From Sandaracinus amylolyticus (GTDB lineage: Bacteria > Myxococcota_A > Polyangia > Polyangiales > Sandaracinaceae), in assembly GCF_021631985.1 (NCBI RefSeq), contig NZ_CP070225.1:10478001-10542000 (forward strand): a stretch of 64,000 nucleotides of DNA. The letters run 5' to 3'. The notes under the pieces were generated by a model, which was not told the origin of the DNA, searched no databases, and saw only the letters and a list, made by a program, of their open reading frames with translations. Shown here in pieces: positions 20,702 through 32,036 of the stretch (within the stretch, counting starts at the first letter, position 1; the number at the start of each line of letters is the position of its first letter). The translations under genes were made by a program, and so were the position numbers.

Positions 20702-21757
20702 TCAGAGCGCGAACACGTCGGCGAGCACGCTGTCGTCGTCGAGGCGCCGCAGGTCGCTCGGTGCGTCGTACACGACGAGCATCGAGTCGCCCTCGTCGAA
20801 CCAGTCGAACGTGCACGCGCCCTCGGCGCGATCGCGCCCGAGCTGCATCGGCAGATCGAAGAGCGGCTCGAGCGCGCCGCGACCCTGGTGCACCAGCGTG
20901 TCGTCCTTGCCCGTGTCGCGGCGCCATCGGAACACGCGATGCGCACCATCGAGCGTCATCGTCGGGCCTGCGACGATCAACACGTCGTCGCCGTGCACCA
21001 TCAGATCGCGCACGCCGAGCCCGTCGAGATCGAGCGCGTGCTTGCGATACGCGCGCTTGCGACGGCGACGCGGCGCGAGCCTGCCGTCGTCCTGCGGCTC
21101 CATCTCGAGCTCGATGACGAACGCCCACCCACGCAGCACCGGGCCGCGCAGGCCGAGCAGCACGTGATCGTCGTGGATCGCGAGCCCTTCGACGTCGAAG
21201 CCGTTGTCCTTCCCGGGGATCGGAACGCGCTCCTCGCGCGGCAGGAACGGATCGAGGTGCTCGTCGCCCTCGAGCAGATCGATCAGCGACTCCGCGTGCT
21301 CGTCGCGCGCCGCGAGGTGCGCGCAGCGGTCGAGCTGCGGCGATCCGCCCTCGAGCGGGATGCGCGTGAGCACGAAGCGCGAGAGGTCGGTCTCGATCTG
21401 CGCGAGCCGCGCCAGGTCTTCCTTGCCCTTGCGCCTCGGCTTCTTGCGCTTCGCGCTGTGCGAGCCGACCACCCAGAGCGCCTCGCCGTCGACGTGCAGC
21501 CCTTCGATGTCGATCTCGCAGTCCTCCTCGAGCCCGAGCGCGCTCGCGATCGAGACGCGACTGTGCGCGCCGTACGCGTGCGCGTGCGGTCCCTCGGGGC
21601 GCAGCGCGTCGAGCGCGGCGAGCTCGTCGGCCGCGAGCCAGAGCGTTCCGTCGTCCTCTCGCGTGACCGCCGAGAGGTTCTCGGGCACGGCGATGGCGGC
21701 ATCACCGCCGAAACCGAGCCGGATGCGACCGAGGAGACAACCGGTGCGTGCGCCCAT
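20702..21757 (-). CDS. DUF3616-family protein
   Basis: A 351-residue protein that matches DUF3616: paired motifs CEIDIEGLHVDGEALWVVGSH and NGFDVEGLAIHDDHVLLGLRGP in a beta-propeller-like repeat pattern, with RGWAFVIELEM and GVRDLMVHGDDVLIVAGPT later. No signal peptide is seen, so it is probably cytoplasmic or leaderless. No catalytic residues are evident; such propellers often bind ligands or act on phytase-like substrates. It is tail-to-tail with the acidic lipoprotein. Function unknown. Confidence 0.82.
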   Translation of the reverse strand: MGARTGCLLGRIRLGFGGDAAIAVPENLSAVTREDDGTLWLAADELAALDALRPEGPHAHAYGAHSRVSIASALGLEEDCEIDIEGLHVDGEALWVVGSHSAKRKKPRRKGKEDLARLAQIETDLSRFVLTRIPLEGGSPQLDRCAHLAARDEHAESLIDLLEGDEHLDPFLPREERVPIPGKDNGFDVEGLAIHDDHVLLGLRGPVLRGWAFVIELEMEPQDDGRLAPRRRRKRAYRKHALDLDGLGVRDLMVHGDDVLIVAGPTMTLDGAHRVFRWRRDTGKDDTLVHQGRGALEPLFDLPMQLGRDRAEGACTFDWFDEGDSMLVVYDAPSDLRRLDDDSVLADVFAL

Positions 21758-22455: not shown

Positions 22456-25400
22456 TCACTCCTCGCAGGCTTCGCCGGTCAGGTACCCGAGCTCGCACAG
22501 CTGACGCCGCGAGTCCGGATCGAGCTCGACCTCTTCGCCCTGCACCGCGCCCTGCGCCGCCTGCACGCGCGCCGCCTGCAGCGCGCGCTCGGTGTGCTCG
22601 AGCCCGCTCGCGTCCTCCGCGCTCACGTCGCGCGTCTCGCGCGGATCGAGATCGGTGCGGAACAGCTCGCGCGCCGGCAGACCGCGCGGATTGCCCGCGT
22701 TCGCCGTGATCAGCTTGAGCTCGTCGGTCCCGCGCAGCTCGCGCACCGACTCGAGCACGTTGCCCTCGTGGCTCTCCTCCGCGTACACGCGCGACGTGCC
22801 CTCGAAGAGGCTGCCGCCCTGCACGCCCTCGGGGCGCTCGATGCCCGCCTCGGCGAGCAGCGTCGGCATGATGTCGACGCTCTGCACCCAGTGGCGCACC
22901 ACCGTGCCCGCGCGACGACCACGCGGCAGCTTCACGAAGAGCGGCACGCGGATCTGCTCGTCGTAGAGCGTCGTGCCGTGCCAGAAGCCGCCGTGCTCGC
23001 CGAACTCCTCGCCGTGATCCGCGGTGATGACGATCGTCATGTCGTCGTAGAGACCGCGACGGCGCAGGTCCTCGACGAGCCGCCCGAAGTGCTCGTCCCA
23101 GTACGTGATCTCTCCGTCGTAGAGATGACGAAGGTGATCCGCCTCCTCGAGCGACGGAGCCTGGTGCGCCGCGCGCGCGTAGCCCGAGCCCGTGTACGGG
23201 TGCTCGAAGTACGGATCGTGCGGATCCATGTACCCGACGAACATCATCCACGGCTCGCGCGGCGCACGATCGAGCCAGCGGAAGAGGTGCGAGTTCACCG
23301 TCTCCGCGTCGCGGTACGCGGTGCCCGGCTGCACGCCGAAGAACGCGTCGCGCACGCCCTCGATGCGCTGCCGCAGGAACTGCACGAGCAGCAGCTTCGC
23401 CGCCGAGTCGTCGGCCCAGAGCACGAACTCGGGCTCGAGGTAGTGGTACTCGTCGAAGCCCTGATCGAAGTGGAAGTAGGGCCCGACGTTGTAGTTCGTG
23501 ACGAAGCCCGTGGTCTGCCAGCCGCTCGACGCGTAGGCCTCGGCCATCGTCGTCAGGTCCTCGGGCAGCGCGTCGCTCTTCGCCATCACGCCGTGCGACG
23601 ACGGATATCGACCGGTCATGATCGAGGCGAAGCTCGGGCGCGTCCAGCTCGCGTTCGCGAACGCCTGATCGAAGCGGATCGCGTCCTGCGCGAACGCATC
23701 GAGGTTCGGCGTGCGACCGCTCTCGTAGCCGTAGCTCGGCAGGTGATCGGCGCGCAGCGTGTCGACGACGACGACCAGCACGTTGCCCGCGCCCTCGGGG
23801 GCCGGCGGGCGGGTGCGACCGTTCGCGGCCTCGGCGGGCTGTCCACCCACGAGCACCGTCGTGATGCCCAGCACGATCACGCTCGCGCTCACCACGACCG
23901 GCGAGCCCCACGCGCGCAGCATCACCGCGCCCGGCTTGCGCGCGACCACGAAGCGGATCGTCGCCGCGAGCGCGAGATAGAGCACCGCCGCCGCGACCAC
24001 GCACCCGAGGAGCACCGCGAGACCCTGCGCGCTCACCCAGCGCAGCTGCTCCTCGAACACGTCGCGACGGATGCGGAACGCGCCGAGCCCGAGCGCGATC
24101 ACCGCGACCATCATCGCCGCCGAGCGCGCGTACGCCGCGGGCTCCGCGACCGCTTCGCGCTTGATGAGGCGCCCGGTCCACGCGAGGAAGCCGCCCATCA
24201 CCGCGCCGCCGAGCGCGCAGAACATCGAGTACGCGATCGCGCCGTACGCGATCACCCACCACCCGGTGCGACCCGACGCGACCACCACGACGCCCTCGCC
24301 GATGCCCACGATCAGACCCGCGAGAAGCCCCGCGCCCATGCCGATCGTCACGCCGCGACCGATCTGCGGCCACGCGCGCTCGGGCACCTCGGGGATCGCC
24401 GCCGCTGCGACCTTCTCGCGATCGGGATCGTCGACCTCGATCTTCGGCGCGTAGCCGCTGCGGCGCGCGAGGAAGAAGAACGCGCCGGTCATGCTCACGC
24501 TCATCTCGACCGCGAAGCCGAGCACCGGGATGAGCACCGCGACCGCCGTCGACACGCCGAGCGACTCGTAGAGCGCGAGCGCGGTGAGCTCGCGGATGCC
24601 GATGCCGTTCGGCGTGATCGGCACCATCGTCGCGAGGATCTGCAGCGCCGAGCCGAAGAAGACCTCGCCCACGCCGACCTGCGTCGCGCCGACCGCCTGC
24701 GCGGTGCACACGTAGATGAGGAAGTGCGTCGTGTGCACGCCCACCGCGCAGAGCACCGCGGTCACGAGCAGCGAGCTCTTGCCGCGATAGGCCTGCAGCG
24801 AGTCGACGAGCGTCTGCACGCGCACCCGCACCTTCGCGGGCAGCACGTTCGCGACCGTCGCGAAGAGCGCGGGCTTCGCGAGGAAGAGCACGCCCACCGC
24901 GATGAGCGACGCGAACGCGCCGTTCACCAGGAGCACGCCGCTCGAGCCGAGGAAGCGCGCGCCGAAGATCGAGCCGAGCATCACGACGCTGCCGAACGCG
25001 AGCCACCCGACCATCGTCTCGACCGCGATGGTCGCGGTCGCGCGCGCGACCTTCCCGGTGTGCTTCGCGACGTCGTAGATGCGCCAGCCGCCGAACCCGG
25101 TGAACCCACCTGGCGTGACCGCGCCGAAGAAGCGCGCGATCAGCAGCGACCCGACGAGGAACGACAGAGTCGGACGGATGCCCTGTCCCTTCAGCAGCGC
25201 ACGCCAGCGCACCACGTTGCAGGACACGCCCACGACGTGCACTCCGAGCGCGACCGCGATCCACTCCCAGCGCAGGCGCGCCATCACGTCGCCGATGCCC
25301 TCGGCGCCACGCTGCGCGCCCACGGTGCGCACGATGTACGCGAGCATCGCGATCGCGAGGGCGAGCTTCACGCCCATCACGATCCACTTGCGGACGCCTC

Positions 25401-25458
25401 CATTCTTCGGCGGCGAGGTCGGGGTCGAAGTCGTCGTCGGAGTCGTCTGCTCGGTCAT
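22456..25458 (-). CDS. UPF0104/LPG-synthase-type membrane domain fused to a sulfatase/phosphatase-fold domain
   Basis: A 1000-residue fusion. Residues about 20-340 are a multi-pass lysylphosphatidylglycerol-synthase-type membrane domain (GAVTPGGFTGFGGWRIYDV, PNGIGIRELTALALYESLG), the flippase-like family UPF0104. Further membrane segments lie at about 360-560. Residues about 560-950 are an alkaline-phosphatase-superfamily domain: VVVVDTLRADHLPSYG with metal ligand Asp566, then SWTRPSFASIMTGRYPSSHG. In sulfatases the nucleophile is formylglycine from Cys or Ser; here Thr606 is at that place, as in phosphoethanolamine and phosphoglycerol transferases. ITADHGEEFGEHG supplies later ligands. A membrane enzyme that transfers a phospho-group to an envelope lipid or glycan is therefore more likely than a sulfatase. 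Divergent from a glycosyltransferase. Confidence 0.85.
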   Translation of the reverse strand: MTEQTTPTTTSTPTSPPKNGGVRKWIVMGVKLALAIAMLAYIVRTVGAQRGAEGIGDVMARLRWEWIAVALGVHVVGVSCNVVRWRALLKGQGIRPTLSFLVGSLLIARFFGAVTPGGFTGFGGWRIYDVAKHTGKVARATATIAVETMVGWLAFGSVVMLGSIFGARFLGSSGVLLVNGAFASLIAVGVLFLAKPALFATVANVLPAKVRVRVQTLVDSLQAYRGKSSLLVTAVLCAVGVHTTHFLIYVCTAQAVGATQVGVGEVFFGSALQILATMVPITPNGIGIRELTALALYESLGVSTAVAVLIPVLGFAVEMSVSMTGAFFFLARRSGYAPKIEVDDPDREKVAAAAIPEVPERAWPQIGRGVTIGMGAGLLAGLIVGIGEGVVVVASGRTGWWVIAYGAIAYSMFCALGGAVMGGFLAWTGRLIKREAVAEPAAYARSAAMMVAVIALGLGAFRIRRDVFEEQLRWVSAQGLAVLLGCVVAAAVLYLALAATIRFVVARKPGAVMLRAWGSPVVVSASVIVLGITTVLVGGQPAEAANGRTRPPAPEGAGNVLVVVVDTLRADHLPSYGYESGRTPNLDAFAQDAIRFDQAFANASWTRPSFASIMTGRYPSSHGVMAKSDALPEDLTTMAEAYASSGWQTTGFVTNYNVGPYFHFDQGFDEYHYLEPEFVLWADDSAAKLLLVQFLRQRIEGVRDAFFGVQPGTAYRDAETVNSHLFRWLDRAPREPWMMFVGYMDPHDPYFEHPYTGSGYARAAHQAPSLEEADHLRHLYDGEITYWDEHFGRLVEDLRRRGLYDDMTIVITADHGEEFGEHGGFWHGTTLYDEQIRVPLFVKLPRGRRAGTVVRHWVQSVDIMPTLLAEAGIERPEGVQGGSLFEGTSRVYAEESHEGNVLESVRELRGTDELKLITANAGNPRGLPARELFRTDLDPRETRDVSAEDASGLEHTERALQAARVQAAQGAVQGEEVELDPDSRRQLCELGYLTGEACEE

Positions 25459-25600: not shown

Positions 25601-27316
25601 GTGACGGCCGTCGACTCCAAGCGCGCGATCGTCCTCCCCCTCGCGCTGGTCTGGCTCGCGTTCACGCTGGTCAACCTCGGCAAGGCCGCGCACGTCGACG
25701 ACGCCGCGCACCTCGAGATCGCGCGATGGATCGCGGCGCATCCGCTCCATCCGATGAGCGGTCTGGTCGACTGGAGCGACGGCCCCGCGCCGATCCACCA
25801 CCTCAACCAGCCGCACCTCTTCTTCTATCTGCTCGCGCTCGCCGGTCCTTCCTTGATCGGCGCGCAGCTCGTGGTCGCGGCGTTCGGCGCGCTCGGCATC
25901 GCGAGCTTCCACGCGTGGTGGAGGCGCTACGTCGGCCCGCGGGGCGAGGTGCTGGGCCCGGCGCTGCTCTTCCTCGGCCCCGCGTACGTGCCCGGGCAGA
26001 ACGTGATGACCGACGCGCCGCTGCTCGCGCTGTGGTGCGCGTTCGGCGCGGGGCTCGTCGCGCGCAGCACGCGCGGCCTCGTGCTCGCCGCGATCGCGTG
26101 CGCGGCCGCTTGCCTCGTGAAGTACACGAGCCTCGTGCTCCTGCCGATCCTCGCGCTCGACGTGCTCCTGCGCGGGCGCGATGCGCGACGCCTGCTGCTC
26201 GTGCTGCTGATCCCGATCGGCACGCTCGCGGCGTGGTCGCTCTTCAACCTCTACGACTACGGCGGCGTGCACCTCGTGGGGCGCCCCATCGAGAGCGCGC
26301 GCTTCAGCGCGCTCGAGGCGCTCGGGATCACGTTCGGCCGCGGCGCGCTGTGGATCCTGACGCTCGGCGCGGCCTCGCCCTTCGTGATCGCGATGATCCC
26401 GGTGCTGCACCGCGAGCCTCGATGGCGCCGCGCGGCGCTGATCTCCGCGATCGCGATCGTGATCCTCACCGTCGCGACCCAGCTGATCGCGGCCCATGTG
26501 CCGCCCATGCGCGGCGAGACGATCGCCCACTCGGCGGCCCGCGCGATCTTCTTCGTCGCCGGGATCGCGGTGCTCGCGCTCGTGGTGCGATCGGCGCGGA
26601 TCATCGACGACCGGACGCGCGTCACCACCGTGCTCGTCGCGTGGCTCGCCGTGACCGCGCTCTTCGTGATCGTGCTCTCGCCCTTCGTCGCGATGCGACA
26701 CGTGCTGCTCGTGATGCCGATCGCGATGACGGTGATCGCGCGCGCGCACCTGCCCGCGCTCGCCTCGATCGCGACACGCCCCTTCCTGAACGCGGCCATC
26801 GGACTCACGGTCGCGCTCGGCATGCTGCTCGGGATCTCCGATCGACGTTGGGCCGAGCGCTACCGCGAGGTGGCGGCGCGCGAAGGCGACGCGGCGGTGG
26901 CGAGCGGATTACGCACCTTCTTCGTCGGGCACTGGGGCTGGCAGTGGTACGCCGCGAACGCCGGGCTCGAGCCCTACGCGCCCGGTCGCACCGAGCTGCG
27001 CAGCGGCGACCGGATCATCCGGCCCTGGCTCGTGGACCAGCCGGCGTGGGACGAGCGCGACGCACCGCGTCTCGAGCTCGATCACGTCGACGAGATCGCC
27101 CCGACGCCGCTCGACTGGCTCCGCACCACCACCGATCGCCTCGGCTACTACTCGGTGTGGCACGGATTGCCCTACACGATCAGCGGCGCGCCGGTGGAGC
27201 GGTTCGAGACTTGGATCGTGGACCGCGCGATTTCTCTACAACGTGAGCCACACGACGCCCCACAGGCGTCGGACAGCAGGACGCGGTCATCTGGGCAACG
27301 CGCACCACGCCTGTGA
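25601..27316 (+). CDS. Membrane glycosyltransferase, GT39/PMT-like (dolichyl-phosphate-mannose type)
   Basis: A 571-residue multi-pass membrane protein. The first loop after membrane segment 1 carries HVDDAAHLEIARWIAAHP, the acidic DD/DE motif of GT-C enzymes such as PMT and ArnT. About ten further hydrophobic segments follow (LVVAAFGALGIASFHAW, LLLVLLIPIGTLAAWSLF and others). Such enzymes move a sugar from a polyprenyl-phosphate carrier to protein or lipid on the outer face of the inner membrane. The C-terminal 25 residues are Arg/Ser/Asp-rich and look unconserved. The GTG start is divergent from the flippase fusion, and the neighbouring GT2 gene on the same strand suggests one envelope-glycan locus. 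Confidence 0.82.
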   Translation: MTAVDSKRAIVLPLALVWLAFTLVNLGKAAHVDDAAHLEIARWIAAHPLHPMSGLVDWSDGPAPIHHLNQPHLFFYLLALAGPSLIGAQLVVAAFGALGIASFHAWWRRYVGPRGEVLGPALLFLGPAYVPGQNVMTDAPLLALWCAFGAGLVARSTRGLVLAAIACAAACLVKYTSLVLLPILALDVLLRGRDARRLLLVLLIPIGTLAAWSLFNLYDYGGVHLVGRPIESARFSALEALGITFGRGALWILTLGAASPFVIAMIPVLHREPRWRRAALISAIAIVILTVATQLIAAHVPPMRGETIAHSAARAIFFVAGIAVLALVVRSARIIDDRTRVTTVLVAWLAVTALFVIVLSPFVAMRHVLLVMPIAMTVIARAHLPALASIATRPFLNAAIGLTVALGMLLGISDRRWAERYREVAAREGDAAVASGLRTFFVGHWGWQWYAANAGLEPYAPGRTELRSGDRIIRPWLVDQPAWDERDAPRLELDHVDEIAPTPLDWLRTTTDRLGYYSVWHGLPYTISGAPVERFETWIVDRAISLQREPHDAPQASDSRTRSSGQRAPRL

Positions 27317-27505
27317 ATCCCCGGACACTGTACGCGCGTCCCGTCCCCACTCGAAACAAAGACTTCTCGACTGGCACGCGGCGTGATTCCACGTCGCGGT
27401 CGGCCGCCCGGCAAGAAATGGCGGCGCAGGACTTCCACCGTGCTAACCCTCGGCCCAACCGAGTCGCTTAACGCAACTCTCCGAGCGACGGAGCGCTCCC
27501 ACCGT

Positions 27506-28570
27506 ATGAGCGAGATGCGGCACCTGAGCATCGTCATTCCTTCGTACAACGCGCGGGCGCTTCTTCGACGCACCCTCCGCACGTTGCAGGTGGCGGCTCC
27601 AGAGGCGGAGATCATCGTCGTCGACGGCCGGTCGCGCGACGGATCTCCAGAGATGGTCCGCGACGAGTTCCCCGACGTCGCGCTCCACCGCTACGAGAAC
27701 CACGGCTTCGCGCACGCGGTGAACCGCGGGCTCGAGCAGGCGAGCGGCGAGTACATCCTCCTGCTCAACTCCGATCTCTTCGTGAGCAAGGCCGCGCTCG
27801 ACGCGATGATCGGCCGGCTCGCGGCGGATCGTTCGGTCGCCGCCGTCGCGCCGATCCTGCACAACGAGGACGGCACGCGTCAGCACCTCTTCGGCTGGCC
27901 CTTCGGCGCGTTCTACTGGCCGAACTGGCTCCGCGTCCGCAACGTCTCGCGCGTCCCGCTGCTCAACGGCGCGTGCTTCATGACGAGGCGCGACGTGCTG
28001 CGCGAGATCGGCGCGTTCGACGAGAACTTCTTCCTCTACAACGAGGAGTACGACTGGTGCGTCCGCGCGCAGCGCGCGGGATACCACCTCGAGCTGGTGC
28101 CCGAGCCGGTCGTGCACGTGGGCGGTGGCAGCACCGCGCCCTCGCCCGATCTCTGGCTCGAGGCGCAGCGCGGCTTCCTCTACTTCACGCAGAAGCACGG
28201 CTCGCCGCTCGCCACCGAGATGCTGCGTCGCGCGATGCAGTTCCAGGGCTTCTGCTACAAGCGCACCGACCCGCGCGCGCGGCACCGCGCGATGTGGGCG
28301 AAGCTCGAGTCGCTGACGTCGCGCGAGGCGTACCTCGAGAGCCCGTTCGAGCTCTCGGGGCGCGGTGATCGTCCTGCGCGGCCGATGTGGCAGGGCGTGA
28401 TGCGCGAGCGTCCCGCTGCGGTCGTCCAGGAGACGACGAGCACGCACGCGATGTCCGAGAGCGCGAGCGAGGCGCCGGTGGAGAACGGCGCGAGTGTCGT
28501 CCGCCTCGCGGCGGAGCGCCTGCGCATCGCGTCGCGCCGCCTGCCGAAGGTCGCAGGCGCCGCAGGCTGA
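27506..28570 (+). CDS. Glycosyltransferase family 2
   Basis: A 354-residue GT2 enzyme. The GT-A fold is clear: LSIVIPSYNARALLRRTLRTL at the N-terminus, VVDGRSRDGSPEMV, the metal-binding motif region LLLNSDLFVS (N-S-D), and NEEYDWCVRAQRAGY near the acceptor site. It matches rhamnosyl/galactosyl-transferase-like members that build cell-surface polysaccharide from nucleotide sugars. I chose the ATG at 27506 (MSEMRHLSIV); the open frame extends 41 codons further upstream but that part is Arg-rich and unlike the family. It leads an operon with a UPF0104 membrane protein and an MMPL transporter. Confidence 0.9.
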   Translation: MSEMRHLSIVIPSYNARALLRRTLRTLQVAAPEAEIIVVDGRSRDGSPEMVRDEFPDVALHRYENHGFAHAVNRGLEQASGEYILLLNSDLFVSKAALDAMIGRLAADRSVAAVAPILHNEDGTRQHLFGWPFGAFYWPNWLRVRNVSRVPLLNGACFMTRRDVLREIGAFDENFFLYNEEYDWCVRAQRAGYHLELVPEPVVHVGGGSTAPSPDLWLEAQRGFLYFTQKHGSPLATEMLRRAMQFQGFCYKRTDPRARHRAMWAKLESLTSREAYLESPFELSGRGDRPARPMWQGVMRERPAAVVQETTSTHAMSESASEAPVENGASVVRLAAERLRIASRRLPKVAGAAG

Positions 28571-28581
28571 TCGGATCGCCG

Positions 28582-29583
28582 GTGCCTTCGGAGGCAGCAG
28601 CAGTGGCTCCGGAGGCGCCCGCGACGTGGAAGCGCGCGCTGCGCGCGCTCTTGTTGATCGCAGGCATCGCGATGCTCGCGATCCTCATCCGAGGCGCGGG
28701 CCCCGAGCGCGTGCTCGAGACCGTGATCGGCGCGGCGGCGTGGATGCCGCTGGTGATCGCGTTCGACCTCGGGTTCTTCGCGTGCGAGGCGATGGCGCAC
28801 CGCGCGGTGCTGGGCCCGCGTCGCACCGAGATCCCGTGGTCGCGCTTCGTGCGCAGCTCGTTCCTCTACTACTGCGTGCTCGCGATCGCGCCGCTCGGTC
28901 GTGCGGGCGCGGAGGTCGCGCGCGCTGCGTCGTTCGCGCCGTGGGTCGGCGGTGGTCGCGCCGCGGCGGCCGCGGCGAACGTGCAGGGTGGGGTGCTGAT
29001 CGCGAACCTCGTGATCTCGGTGCCGTGCTGGATCGCGGTGTCGAGCACCGTCGGCGTCGATCACGCGCTCGCGTGGCTGCTCGCGCTGAACGGGATCGGC
29101 ACCGGCATCGCGGGCGCGTTCACGCTCTTGATCGTGCGGCGATCACGGGTGGGCACGTGGCTCGGCACGCGCTTCCCGCGCCTCGCGAAGATGGGCGCGG
29201 AGCTCGACGACGCGGTGGTCGCGCCGCGTCGTGATCTGATCGTCGCGACCGCGTGGTGCTGCGCCGCGCGCATCGTGCAGATCGGGATGTACGCGTCGCT
29301 GCTCGCCGCGATCGGCGCGAGCGTGACGCTCGGTGGGACGCTCGTCGCGCTCGGCGTGCACCTCGTGGGCGCGGGCTTCGGTGACTTCGTGCCCAACCAG
29401 ATCGGCATCCTCGAGGGTGCGTATCGGATCTTCGCGGACGCGGTCGGGCTCGCCCACGACCCTGCGCGCGCGATCTCGATCGCGCTGCTCGCGCGCGTCG
29501 CGCAGTTCGTGATCGCAGGCTCGGGCATGCTCGCGCTCGCGATGTGGCGTCGCGACGCCGCGGTGGTGAGCGCGCCCTCGTGA
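28582..29583 (+). CDS. UPF0104 / lysylphosphatidylglycerol-synthase-type membrane protein
   Basis: A 333-residue multi-pass membrane protein. Hydrophobic segments include LLLIAGIAMLAILI, WMPLVIAFDLGFFACEAM and VLIANLVISVPCWIAV; the family motifs are IAPLGRAGAEVARA and FGDFVPNQIGILEGAYRIF. This matches the flippase-like domain of the fusion at 22456-25458. Proteins of this family are thought to move or modify lipids in the inner membrane. The GTG at 28582 is 12 bp after the GT2 stop. The next gene, an MMPL transporter, overlaps its stop as GTGA. Together they look like synthesis and export of an envelope lipid. Confidence 0.8.
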   Translation: MPSEAAAVAPEAPATWKRALRALLLIAGIAMLAILIRGAGPERVLETVIGAAAWMPLVIAFDLGFFACEAMAHRAVLGPRRTEIPWSRFVRSSFLYYCVLAIAPLGRAGAEVARAASFAPWVGGGRAAAAAANVQGGVLIANLVISVPCWIAVSSTVGVDHALAWLLALNGIGTGIAGAFTLLIVRRSRVGTWLGTRFPRLAKMGAELDDAVVAPRRDLIVATAWCCAARIVQIGMYASLLAAIGASVTLGGTLVALGVHLVGAGFGDFVPNQIGILEGAYRIFADAVGLAHDPARAISIALLARVAQFVIAGSGMLALAMWRRDAAVVSAPS

Positions 29584-32036
29584 GCGAGGAGAAGGAGCCG
29601 CGGCTCGAGCGCGCGCTGGGTGCGCTCGGTCGCTTCGTGAGCCGGCACGCGAGCGCGGTGGTGATCGTGCTGCTGCTCTCGCTGATCCCGGCGGGGTGGC
29701 TCTCGATGCGCCTCGCGGTGAGCGCGTCGTTCCTCGATCTGCTGCCCGACGACGAGCTGCCGGTGCGACAGCTCGACCAGGTGCTGCACCACGCGCGCGG
29801 CGCGAGCGACGTCGTGATCGCGATCTCGACCGAGGATCGCGAGCTCGCCGAGCGCTTCGGTCGCGCGATGATCGCGGAGCTCCAGCGCGACCAGGGCATC
29901 CAGGGCATCGGCGGTCACGTCGACACCGAGTGGTTCCGCCAGCGGCAGCTGCTCTTCGTGCCGGAGCGCGAGCTCGAGGATCTGATCGCGCGCGCCGAAG
30001 AAGCGATCGATCGCGAGACGATGCGCCGCTCGGGGTTCGACCTCGGGCTCGACGACGAAGAGGAAGACGACGAGGGCACGAGCGAGCTGCTCGCGGAGGT
30101 CGATCGCGGCGAGGAGCGCCTCGGTCGTCGCGAGTGGGTCGAGACCCGCGACGGTCGGTATCTCGCGGTGTGGGCCTTCTTCTCGGGCAACACCGGCGAT
30201 CTCGAGTTCGGACGTCAGGCGTGGGCGCGCGTGCGCGCGGTCGCGGATCGACTGCGCGACGGCGAGCGCTTCCCGCGCGATCTCGAGGTGCGCTACGCGG
30301 GCGGCATCCCGAGCCGCGTCGAGGACGAGCGCGCGCTCGTGTCCGATCTGCAGATCGCGGGCGCGGTCGGGTTCCTCGGAGTGATCCTGCTGATCGTCGC
30401 GGCGCTGCGCGCGCCGCGCGCGATCATCCTGCTCGCGGTGCCGCTCTTCACCGGGCTCTTGTGGACGTTCGCGTTCGCACGGCTCGCGGTCGGGCACCTC
30501 AACATCATCAGCGGGTTCCTGTTCTCGATCCTCTCGGGCCTCGGCATCGAGTACGGCATCCACCTGCTGCATCGTTATCGCGAGCTGCGCGAAGAAGGGC
30601 TCCCGCTCGATCGCGCGATCGAGAAGCTGGTGTCGACGACCGGGCGCGCGCTGCTCTCGGGCTCGATGACGAACGCGGGCGTGTTCGCGGTGATCGCGGC
30701 CGCGCAGTTCCGCGGGTTCAGCGAGTTCGGTCTGATCGCGTCGGTCGGTCTGCTGCTCACGCTCGTCGCGACGTTGCTCGGCATGCCCGCGCTGCTCGTG
30801 ATCGGCGAGCGCGTCGCGCCGATGAAGATGCGCGCCGCGCCCGACGACGCGAAGCCGCCGCTCCGCGTGCCCGCCGCGCTGCGATGGATCGTCGTGATCG
30901 CGATCCCGATCGCCGCGATCGCGGGCGCGACGTTGATCGCGCGCGGCGACGTGCGCTTCGACGGCAACTGGCGCCTGCTCGCGGGCGACAGCGACGCGAC
31001 GCGCTTCGGCGAGTACCTGCGGCACCAGCTCTCGGGACGCTTCAACGCGGCCGTGCTGTGGGTGCCCGACGACGCGGATCTTCCGCGCGTCGAAGAGGTG
31101 ATCGACTCGGTGCGCGAGGCGCGCACCGCGCGCGGAGAGCCCTTCGACGTGGTCGAGGTCGCGACGCTCGCGGACGTGTTCCCGTCGCCCGAGGCGCAGG
31201 CGCGACGCGCCGCGCTCGCACAGGATCTCGGCGCGCAGCTGCGGCGCATCCGCCCCGCGATGCTCGACGACGCGGGCCGCGCGCGGCTCGAAGAAGGCCT
31301 CGCGCTGGTGGAGAGCGCGCGACCGTTCTCGCTCGACGAGATGCCGTACTCGGTGGTCGGTCATCTCCTGACGTCGGACGGGCGCGGATCGATCGTGCAC
31401 GTGCGCGCCGCGGAGACCGACGACGCCGACACCGGCGTCCTCGTCGCGTGGGCCGCGCAGGCGCGCGAGATCGCGGCGGCCTTCGTGGGCGCGGGCGTCG
31501 ACGCGCCGATGCTCAGCGAGAACTGGATCGCCGGCGAGATCTTCGAGCGCATCGCGCACGACGGACGCTTCCTGGTGATCGGCACCGTGCTCGCAGTGTT
31601 CGTGGTGCTGCTCCTCGACTTCCGCCGCCCGTTCGCGGCCGCCGCGGTGCTGAGCTCGGTGCTGCTCGGCGTCGTCGCGATGGCGGTGGGGCTCTGGCTC
31701 GCGGGCGTGCAGCTCAACTTCATGAACGCCGCGATCCTCCCGGTGTGCGTGAGCATCTCGCTCGACAACGCGATCCACGTCTACCACCGGTGGCGCGAGG
31801 GCGGGCCGGGCTCGATCCCGATCGTCCTGCGCCACACCACGATGGCGAACCTGCTCGCGTCGGCGACGAACCTGCTCGGCTTCGCGGCGCTCGTGCTGAC
31901 GCACCACGCCGGGCTGCGCTCGGTCGCGTACCTCGCGATCATCGGAGTCACCTCGACCTACCTGTCGACGACGGTGTGGTTCCCGATGGTGCTCGCGACG
32001 ATCGACGCGTGGTCCGCGAAGACGAAGCGCGGTTGA
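29580..32036 (+). CDS. RND-superfamily (MMPL/HpnN-like) lipid transporter
   Basis: An 818-residue RND-type transporter in two homologous halves. Membrane segment 1 is VVIVLLLSLIPAGW, then a large periplasmic loop, then five clustered segments (LQIAGAVGFLGVILLIVAAL through GLLLTLVATLLGMPALLVI); the second half repeats this with a segment near residue 445 and a cluster at about 680-805. The motif GLGIEYGIHLLHRYRE and its counterpart SISLDNAIHVYHRWRE mark the proton-relay segments and resemble HpnN-type hopanoid exporters and MMPL proteins. The first loop carries a very acidic patch, LDDEEEDDEG. The start overlaps the UPF0104 stop by GTGA. Likely role: moving a lipid made by the operon to the outer membrane. 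Confidence 0.87.
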   Translation: MSEEKEPRLERALGALGRFVSRHASAVVIVLLLSLIPAGWLSMRLAVSASFLDLLPDDELPVRQLDQVLHHARGASDVVIAISTEDRELAERFGRAMIAELQRDQGIQGIGGHVDTEWFRQRQLLFVPERELEDLIARAEEAIDRETMRRSGFDLGLDDEEEDDEGTSELLAEVDRGEERLGRREWVETRDGRYLAVWAFFSGNTGDLEFGRQAWARVRAVADRLRDGERFPRDLEVRYAGGIPSRVEDERALVSDLQIAGAVGFLGVILLIVAALRAPRAIILLAVPLFTGLLWTFAFARLAVGHLNIISGFLFSILSGLGIEYGIHLLHRYRELREEGLPLDRAIEKLVSTTGRALLSGSMTNAGVFAVIAAAQFRGFSEFGLIASVGLLLTLVATLLGMPALLVIGERVAPMKMRAAPDDAKPPLRVPAALRWIVVIAIPIAAIAGATLIARGDVRFDGNWRLLAGDSDATRFGEYLRHQLSGRFNAAVLWVPDDADLPRVEEVIDSVREARTARGEPFDVVEVATLADVFPSPEAQARRAALAQDLGAQLRRIRPAMLDDAGRARLEEGLALVESARPFSLDEMPYSVVGHLLTSDGRGSIVHVRAAETDDADTGVLVAWAAQAREIAAAFVGAGVDAPMLSENWIAGEIFERIAHDGRFLVIGTVLAVFVVLLLDFRRPFAAAAVLSSVLLGVVAMAVGLWLAGVQLNFMNAAILPVCVSISLDNAIHVYHRWREGGPGSIPIVLRHTTMANLLASATNLLGFAALVLTHHAGLRSVAYLAIIGVTSTYLSTTVWFPMVLATIDAWSAKTKRG

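Follow-up and report, generated by a model that had tools for sequence, protein, structure and literature searches.

A conserved three-module membrane protein of Myxococcota joins a flippase-like domain to a sulfatase-shaped domain with a predicted threonine nucleophile

The stretch of DNA analysed here (the window) comprises 64,000 nucleotides of the Sandaracinus amylolyticus contig NZ_CP070225.1 (positions 10,478,001 to 10,542,000); coordinates below are those of the window. On its minus strand, positions 22456–25458 hold an uninterrupted open reading frame without internal stop, encoding a protein of 1,000 amino acids (aa) that has full-length homologues. Judged by its sequence, the protein is a predicted lipid-flipping domain joined to a sulfatase-shaped domain with a threonine as its predicted reactive residue. 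Three modules follow one another from the N terminus to the C terminus, all encoded on the minus strand: a flippase-like UPF0104/LPG_synthase_TM domain (residues 22–345, positions 24424–25395), five transmembrane (TM) helices (residues 366–537, positions 23848–24363) and a catalytic domain with the S1-sulfatase/phosphonate-hydrolase fold (residues 556–996, positions 22471–23793). The original prediction for this gene described a two-part layout; both of the domains that it named are there, and the five-helix membrane domain (~366–537) between them had been missed.

The N-terminal region matched the Pfam model LPG_synthase_TM (UPF0104) at residues 32–316 (E = 1.3e-21; 77.8 bits, gathering cut-off 33.4), as predicted, while the NCBIfam model TIGR00374 scored 41.2 bits, slightly under its cut-off of 43.2. 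An AlphaFold2 model built from an alignment of 39 fused homologues (19 of 23 near rows, without L018, L024, L033 and L036, plus 20 distant rows) had a mean pLDDT of 86.8 and a pTM of 0.72. Its N-terminal helices can be read as TM1, TM2, 3a/3b, TM4, TM5, TM6, 7a/7b and TM8, with split helices at residues 98–112/118–134 (3a/3b) and 263–277/288–298 (7a/7b); these helix names are those of RtMprF subdomain 1 in the available text of PMC8131360. As read from the model, this layout is compatible with an MprF-type structure; in the fold searches, the catalytic domain took up the match lists. Across the 39 divergent rows, 24 positions of this domain are invariant, many of them polar (K31, R84, Q92, R109, D129, E147, R289 and E290). 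W85 is likewise invariant, as are G285, G287, R289 and E290 of the GxGxRE motif (GIGIRE, residues 285–290, positions 24589–24606; 39/39 rows). In MprF, the gating Arg304 lies 24 residues past Glu280, according to the part of PMC8131360 that was available. Motif comparison would equate Glu290 with MprF Glu280 and would put the invariant Gly314 (39 rows) at the place of Arg304, so the cargo site probably differs from that of MprF. LPG_synthase_C was found neither in the protein nor in its own genome (of 10 genomes searched, one had it), and EptA_B_N (PF08019) likewise had no match in either. Neither MprF aminoacylation nor a canonical EptA therefore explains the cargo or the chemistry.

The five TM helices of the second module span residues 366–394, 401–431, 439–467, 477–505 and 518–537 in the model, in agreement with hydropathy, and this module modelled alone with the catalytic domain reached a pLDDT of 91.9. 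If the MprF-type domain starts and ends on the cytoplasmic side, five further helices ending outside would place the catalytic domain in the periplasm. By eye, basic loops at ~195–227, 332–340, 432–438 and 505–515 agree with this topology. The third helix has, at what is predicted to be its outer end, a basic/acidic motif, FRIRRDVFEE (residues 461–470, positions 24049–24078), of which F461, R465, D466 and E470 are kept in 39/39 fused rows and, with unfused homologues included, in 47, 48, 45 and 56 of 58 rows, respectively. The motif is a candidate contact for lipid or substrate.

The catalytic domain belongs to the alkaline phosphatase superfamily, with a Pfam Sulfatase match at residues 559–873 (E = 1.3e-45; 156.5 bits, cut-off 25); the Type I phosphodiesterase model also scored on the protein (E = 5.6e-14). 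Its fold and sequence matches listed were S1 sulfatases and phosphonate monoester hydrolases, including 4uph (Foldseek, E = 1.2e-23) and 4upk, and 6hr5 had the best structural score listed (Z = 41.7, rmsd 2.2 Å, 344 residues aligned). NCBIfam models scored in the same order, with choline sulfatase at 124.5 bits, PehA at 116.5, EptA at 34.8 and LtaS at 28.4, all under their own cut-offs (561 for EptA and 970 for LtaS). Neither LtaS nor EptA was among the 50 structural-aligner matches listed, an absence that proves nothing. The likeness to LtaS and phosphoethanolamine transferases that had been proposed thus stands in part: the domain is nearest to S1 sulfatases and phosphonate monoester hydrolases in fold and sequence, and its likeness to EptA lies in the catalytic residues and the five-helix anchor.

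Thr606 (positions 23641–23643; context NASW-T606-RPSFASIMTGR) is the predicted nucleophile. In HMMER alignments inspected by eye, T606 falls on the formylglycine (FGly) Cys of the phosphonate monoester hydrolase 4upk, which bears out its assignment to the sulfatase Cys position; the motif Arg of 4upk pairs with F610, and its Lys, like that of 6hhm, with G828. The Cys or Ser of the CxPxR motif of FGly sulfatases is therefore absent, with T606 at that site and F610 at the site of the Arg. Across 58 aligned homologues (39 fused and 19 unfused rows, with the truncated L048 left out), the nucleophile site holds Thr in 57, Ser in one and Cys in none. The two findings named beforehand as speaking against the prediction, another residue as nucleophile or Cys in homologues, were both looked for and did not occur. 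Trp605 is kept in 58/58 rows, and D566, T567, T606, H747, D814, H815, H822 and H827 are invariant in the 39 fused rows.

A profile alignment with Escherichia coli EptA placed ADHGEEFGEHGGFWHG on SDHGESLGENGIYLHG without gaps. The predicted metal ligands are Asp566 of VDTLRAD (positions 23761–23763; 58/58 rows), which hhalign put on EptA Glu244 of VGETSR, and Asp814-His815 of DHGE (positions 23014–23019; Asp in 57/58 and His in 58/58 rows), aligned with EptA D455-H456. His747 of MDPHDPY (positions 23218–23220; 58/58 rows) aligned with H385 of GSHGP, and His827 (positions 22978–22980; 57/58 rows) lies 12 residues past His815, the spacing of EptA His456/His468 and also, in the portion of PMC5216409 at hand, of MCR-1 H466/H478. 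The protein thus has the EptA-type set of a conserved Thr, a metal Asp-His pair and a His at +12, with T606 itself shifted by two columns in a part of the alignment that has low confidence.

The protein's own genome served as a control. It holds 11 Sulfatase-family matches, the window gene included, and eight were fetched and read, that is, the window gene and seven others. Four of these (L001, L002, L003 and L006) have CxPxR with SDNG; L004 has CSPTR, with no D-N/H-G motif found, and L005 has TDNG, with no Cys motif found. L008 is the only one of the seven with Thr (TKPSVAS) and the only one with SDHGE...HG. It is an 835-aa Sulfatase-family frame (C1:3068546-3069457) of the Thr type, with the motif WTKPSVASVLTG and SDHGEEF...HG, whose match to the window protein is limited to the catalytic part.

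Matches spanning both halves of the protein occurred in 26 of 56 relatives and in 55 of 282 genomes of the phylum Myxococcota, to which Sandaracinus belongs (in each case counted by eye, with the own genome included and one match with an internal stop). Two further genomes, G101 and G231, broken by a contig end or frame, were in our own reading also counted as fused, giving 57/282. The closest relative, in the same genus, is 93% identical, and the closest named record, an uncultured Sandaracinus metagenome-assembled genome, 75%; the record scan used exact peptides and reaches close relatives only, so the census of fusions is that of the phylum sample. In a search for plasmid-borne fusions, none of 409 matching records covered 80% of the protein. 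The observation behind the original prediction is thus real. The pairing, which it called unusual, is so without being a one-off: it is a conserved architecture of the phylum, with MprF as a logical parallel.

The unit of five TM helices and catalytic domain also occurs without the flippase domain. In 13 of 19 genomes with such an unfused enzyme, a flippase profile found a separate flippase (E = 1.2e-41 to 6.7e-93), and none was found in the other six at E ≤ 1e-5 (G109 was left out of this search). The separate flippase (profile E ≤ 1e-3) was not beside the unfused enzyme genes in 20 fetched stretches. In a tree of the catalytic domain, unfused lineages lie between two fused blocks, with moderate support on the deep branches (91/87 and 89/83); the fused label needs two changes on this tree, and a single origin remains compatible with it. 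A midpoint-rooted flippase tree was built from 21 of the 39 fused rows and from 13 split loci of the 15 fetched; a simple gene caller had missed L139 and L150. The tree grouped 11 of the 13 split flippases together (100/100), and this clade joins one block's fused domains (100/99); the remaining two join next (100/98). On its other side stand the window-type fused domains and the clade of the window genome's paralogue (100/98). In none of 200 bootstrap trees did a branch set all fused domains apart from the rest, split and fused flippases being intermixed, although long branches may be meeting where L061 and L062 stand with the paralogues.

Among the 282 genomes, the flippase (E ≤ 1e-50) occurred in 83, the enzyme (E ≤ 1e-90) in 110 and both in 81. 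Because the profiles were built from members of the family, which makes co-occurrence trivial in fused genomes, we removed the 57 fused genomes; the rest comprised 24 with both, 2 with the flippase only, 29 with the enzyme only and 170 with neither. The flippase is therefore rarely found without the enzyme (24 of 26 flippase-bearing genomes have both, the other two, G162 and G283, being 85% and 65% complete), and the enzyme is able to do without the flippase.

Divergent from the fusion gene, positions 25601–27316 (plus strand) encode a multi-pass membrane protein of 571 aa with no Pfam or NCBIfam match, which by eye we take to resemble a GT39-type glycosyltransferase. Beyond it lie a GT2 glycosyltransferase gene (27383–28570), a gene for a weakly HpnL-like membrane protein (28387–29583; 23 bits) and, following the latter, one for an HpnN/BstA-like MMPL-family RND lipid transporter (29544–32036, plus strand; TIGR03480 226.9 bits, under its cut-off of 751.85). 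The HpnN/BstA-like, HpnL-like and GT2 genes possibly form an envelope-lipid cluster beside the fusion gene, on the opposite strand. On the other flank, a DUF3616 gene (20702–21757, minus strand; 332.8 bits) also adjoins the nearest orthologue (L010). We considered and rejected an operon logic, as the GT2 and trypsin-like neighbours recur in close relatives only. In the distant fused group, the recurring neighbours include FeoB, GpsA, a Cys/Met pyridoxal phosphate enzyme and subunits of NADH dehydrogenase. Directly beside an unfused Thr-type homologue, two Type I phosphodiesterase genes (L041, 2740-5867) make three alkaline-phosphatase-superfamily genes in a row, and a gene of the type at 2740-4407 of L041 is also clustered in L042, L054 and L057. 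In several genomes with the split form, two genes stand after or near the separate flippase gene (L141, 5424-8842; alike in L144, L145, L150 and L151). Those genes near split flippases that were read have, by eye, the look of outer-membrane β-barrels, and the L141 pair has no Pfam match.

We think it rather probable that the protein is an inner-membrane, three-module enzyme of envelope lipids that flips and then modifies its substrate. Sequence and model show the three modules, the sequence in which they stand, the conserved Thr with its set of metal ligands and a conserved fusion that also has a split form; periplasmic topology, metal number and chemistry are what we infer. The N-terminal MprF-like domain would move a lipid between leaflets, as a flippase or a scramblase, and the five-helix module would anchor the periplasmic catalytic domain and present the lipid to it. 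There, Thr606, activated by a single metal ion with Asp566, Asp814 and His815 as its ligands, would attack the phosphorus atom of a phosphodiester, either a lipid or a lipid-linked one, to give a phospho-threonine intermediate. The phospho-group would then go to an acceptor in the envelope (or to water), helped by His747 and His827. The flippase domain may supply the substrate lipid from inside or return spent lipid, for example diacylglycerol. This order would reverse that of MprF, in which headgroup addition takes place inside and export follows. The proposal draws on the conservation of Thr606, the loss of the Cys, Arg and Lys of FGly enzymes, the EptA-like DHGE...HG block, the helix layout and helix count, the fused and split pairing and the 24/26 co-occurrence. 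As an inference from its domains, the predicted coupling of lipid movement with phospho-group chemistry in one protein is supported.

Several observations weigh against this proposal. Hhalign put T606 two columns off EptA Thr280, and the nearest neighbours of the catalytic domain in fold and sequence, sulfatases and phosphonate hydrolases, make hydrolysis as natural as transfer. The flippase domain had no convincing Protein Data Bank match in sequence searches; the basic residues 462–465 sit at a predicted outer helix end, contrary to the positive-inside rule; and the neighbouring genes give no clear lipid pathway. Of the 110 enzyme-positive genomes, 29 lack this flippase at the thresholds applied (one of them, G233, has a weaker match). 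Where both genes occur separately, they are, as compared by eye, on different contigs in 23 of 24 genomes and ~165 kb apart in G079. The two trees disagree on family f54, which stands near the window's fused block in the catalytic tree (89/83) and with the split flippases in the flippase tree (100/100), and the co-occurrence (Fisher p = 1.5e-15 on the 24/2/29/170 table) is not corrected for shared ancestry.

Three other explanations were weighed. The protein might be a hydrolase, that is, a membrane-bound phosphodiesterase or a phosphonate or phosphate monoesterase that strips headgroups from outer-leaflet lipids, either to remodel them or to scavenge phosphate, while the flippase domain returns the product. 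We regard this as possible though rather unlikely: the phosphonate monoester hydrolases 4uph and 4upk among the closest solved relatives, the Type I phosphodiesterase score and the two phosphodiesterase genes beside the unfused homologue of L041 agree with it, but a five-helix anchor with Thr and a His at +12 is the EptA-type arrangement, and such enzymes transfer. We consider a transferase a little more likely than a plain hydrolase. If the flippase domain had degenerated into a membrane anchor or regulator and no longer moved lipid, the pairing would be structural only; this would suit the 29 genomes in which the enzyme does without it. Its 24 invariant positions, many polar, argue otherwise, as do the separate flippase copies that persist in split lineages, which a mere anchor leaves unexplained, and we hold this explanation to be improbable. 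A genuine sulfatase that, unusually, uses Thr as its nucleophile would match the S1-sulfatase fold, yet we judge it very improbable: the sulfatase Arg and Lys are gone, a His replaces the Asn after the metal Asp, unlike in the DNG-type sulfatases of the same genome, and Thr is not expected to yield formylglycine, according to the available part of PMC5066984, which also notes many Thr-containing sequences in the PF00884 seed.

The proposal of a lipid-flipping, lipid-modifying enzyme can be extended, tentatively, to a phylum-wide machine for envelope lipids. In it, a phosphotransferase with its evolutionary origin within the sulfatase fold would either contain an MprF-type scramblase or cooperate with one. 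The machine would flip a lipid outward and modify it on the periplasmic face, and the product might be a surface lipid or lipid-linked glycan new to Myxococcota. If true, the machine would be undescribed and would work in the order opposite to that of MprF. Studies of lipid flipping and of headgroup chemistry usually treat the two as the work of separate genes, and a pair that occurs both fused and split makes the coupling of a scramblase-type domain to a periplasmic phospho-enzyme directly testable. The family also adds to a warning given in PMC5066984: a protein annotated as a 'sulfatase' but carrying Thr at the Cys site is probably not one.

A fusion of UPF0104 with a phospho-enzyme was not found described in the open-access subset of the literature. 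To our knowledge, the parallels that combine flipping with headgroup chemistry in one protein are MprF and AglD, and LtaS has no flippase domain. LtaS shares with the window protein a membrane anchor and an extracytoplasmic Thr phosphotransferase domain, but the LtaS model gives the window protein only the 28.4 bits mentioned above. MprF likewise joins LPG_synthase_TM to a lipid headgroup enzyme, with a similar split-helix layout in our model, but its enzyme is a cytoplasmic aminoacyl transferase that acts before flipping, whereas that of the window protein is a predicted periplasmic phospho-enzyme. OmrA of Myxococcus, an inner-membrane protein predicted to have eight helices and reported to attach amino acids to phospholipids, was considered as a parallel from its description only. 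In the available portion of PMC5898192, the composite UPF0104 proteins on record are MprF and the archaeal AglD fusion; AglD is thus another UPF0104 fusion with a lipid-linked enzyme, but that enzyme is a cytoplasmic glycosyltransferase rather than a phospho-enzyme. GpgF, a stand-alone UPF0104 protein, is tied to glucosaminyl-PG synthesis in the accessible part of PMC12713373. S1 sulfatases and phosphonate monoester hydrolases share the fold and give the top sequence scores, whereas the window protein is membrane-anchored and has Thr for the FGly Cys, Phe for Arg and Gly for Lys. With EptA and MCR it shares the five-helix anchor, the Thr nucleophile and the DHGE...HG metal/His block with its +12 spacing; it differs from them in its extra flippase domain, in the Asp that replaces the EptA Glu ligand and in a catalytic fold nearer to S1 sulfatases.

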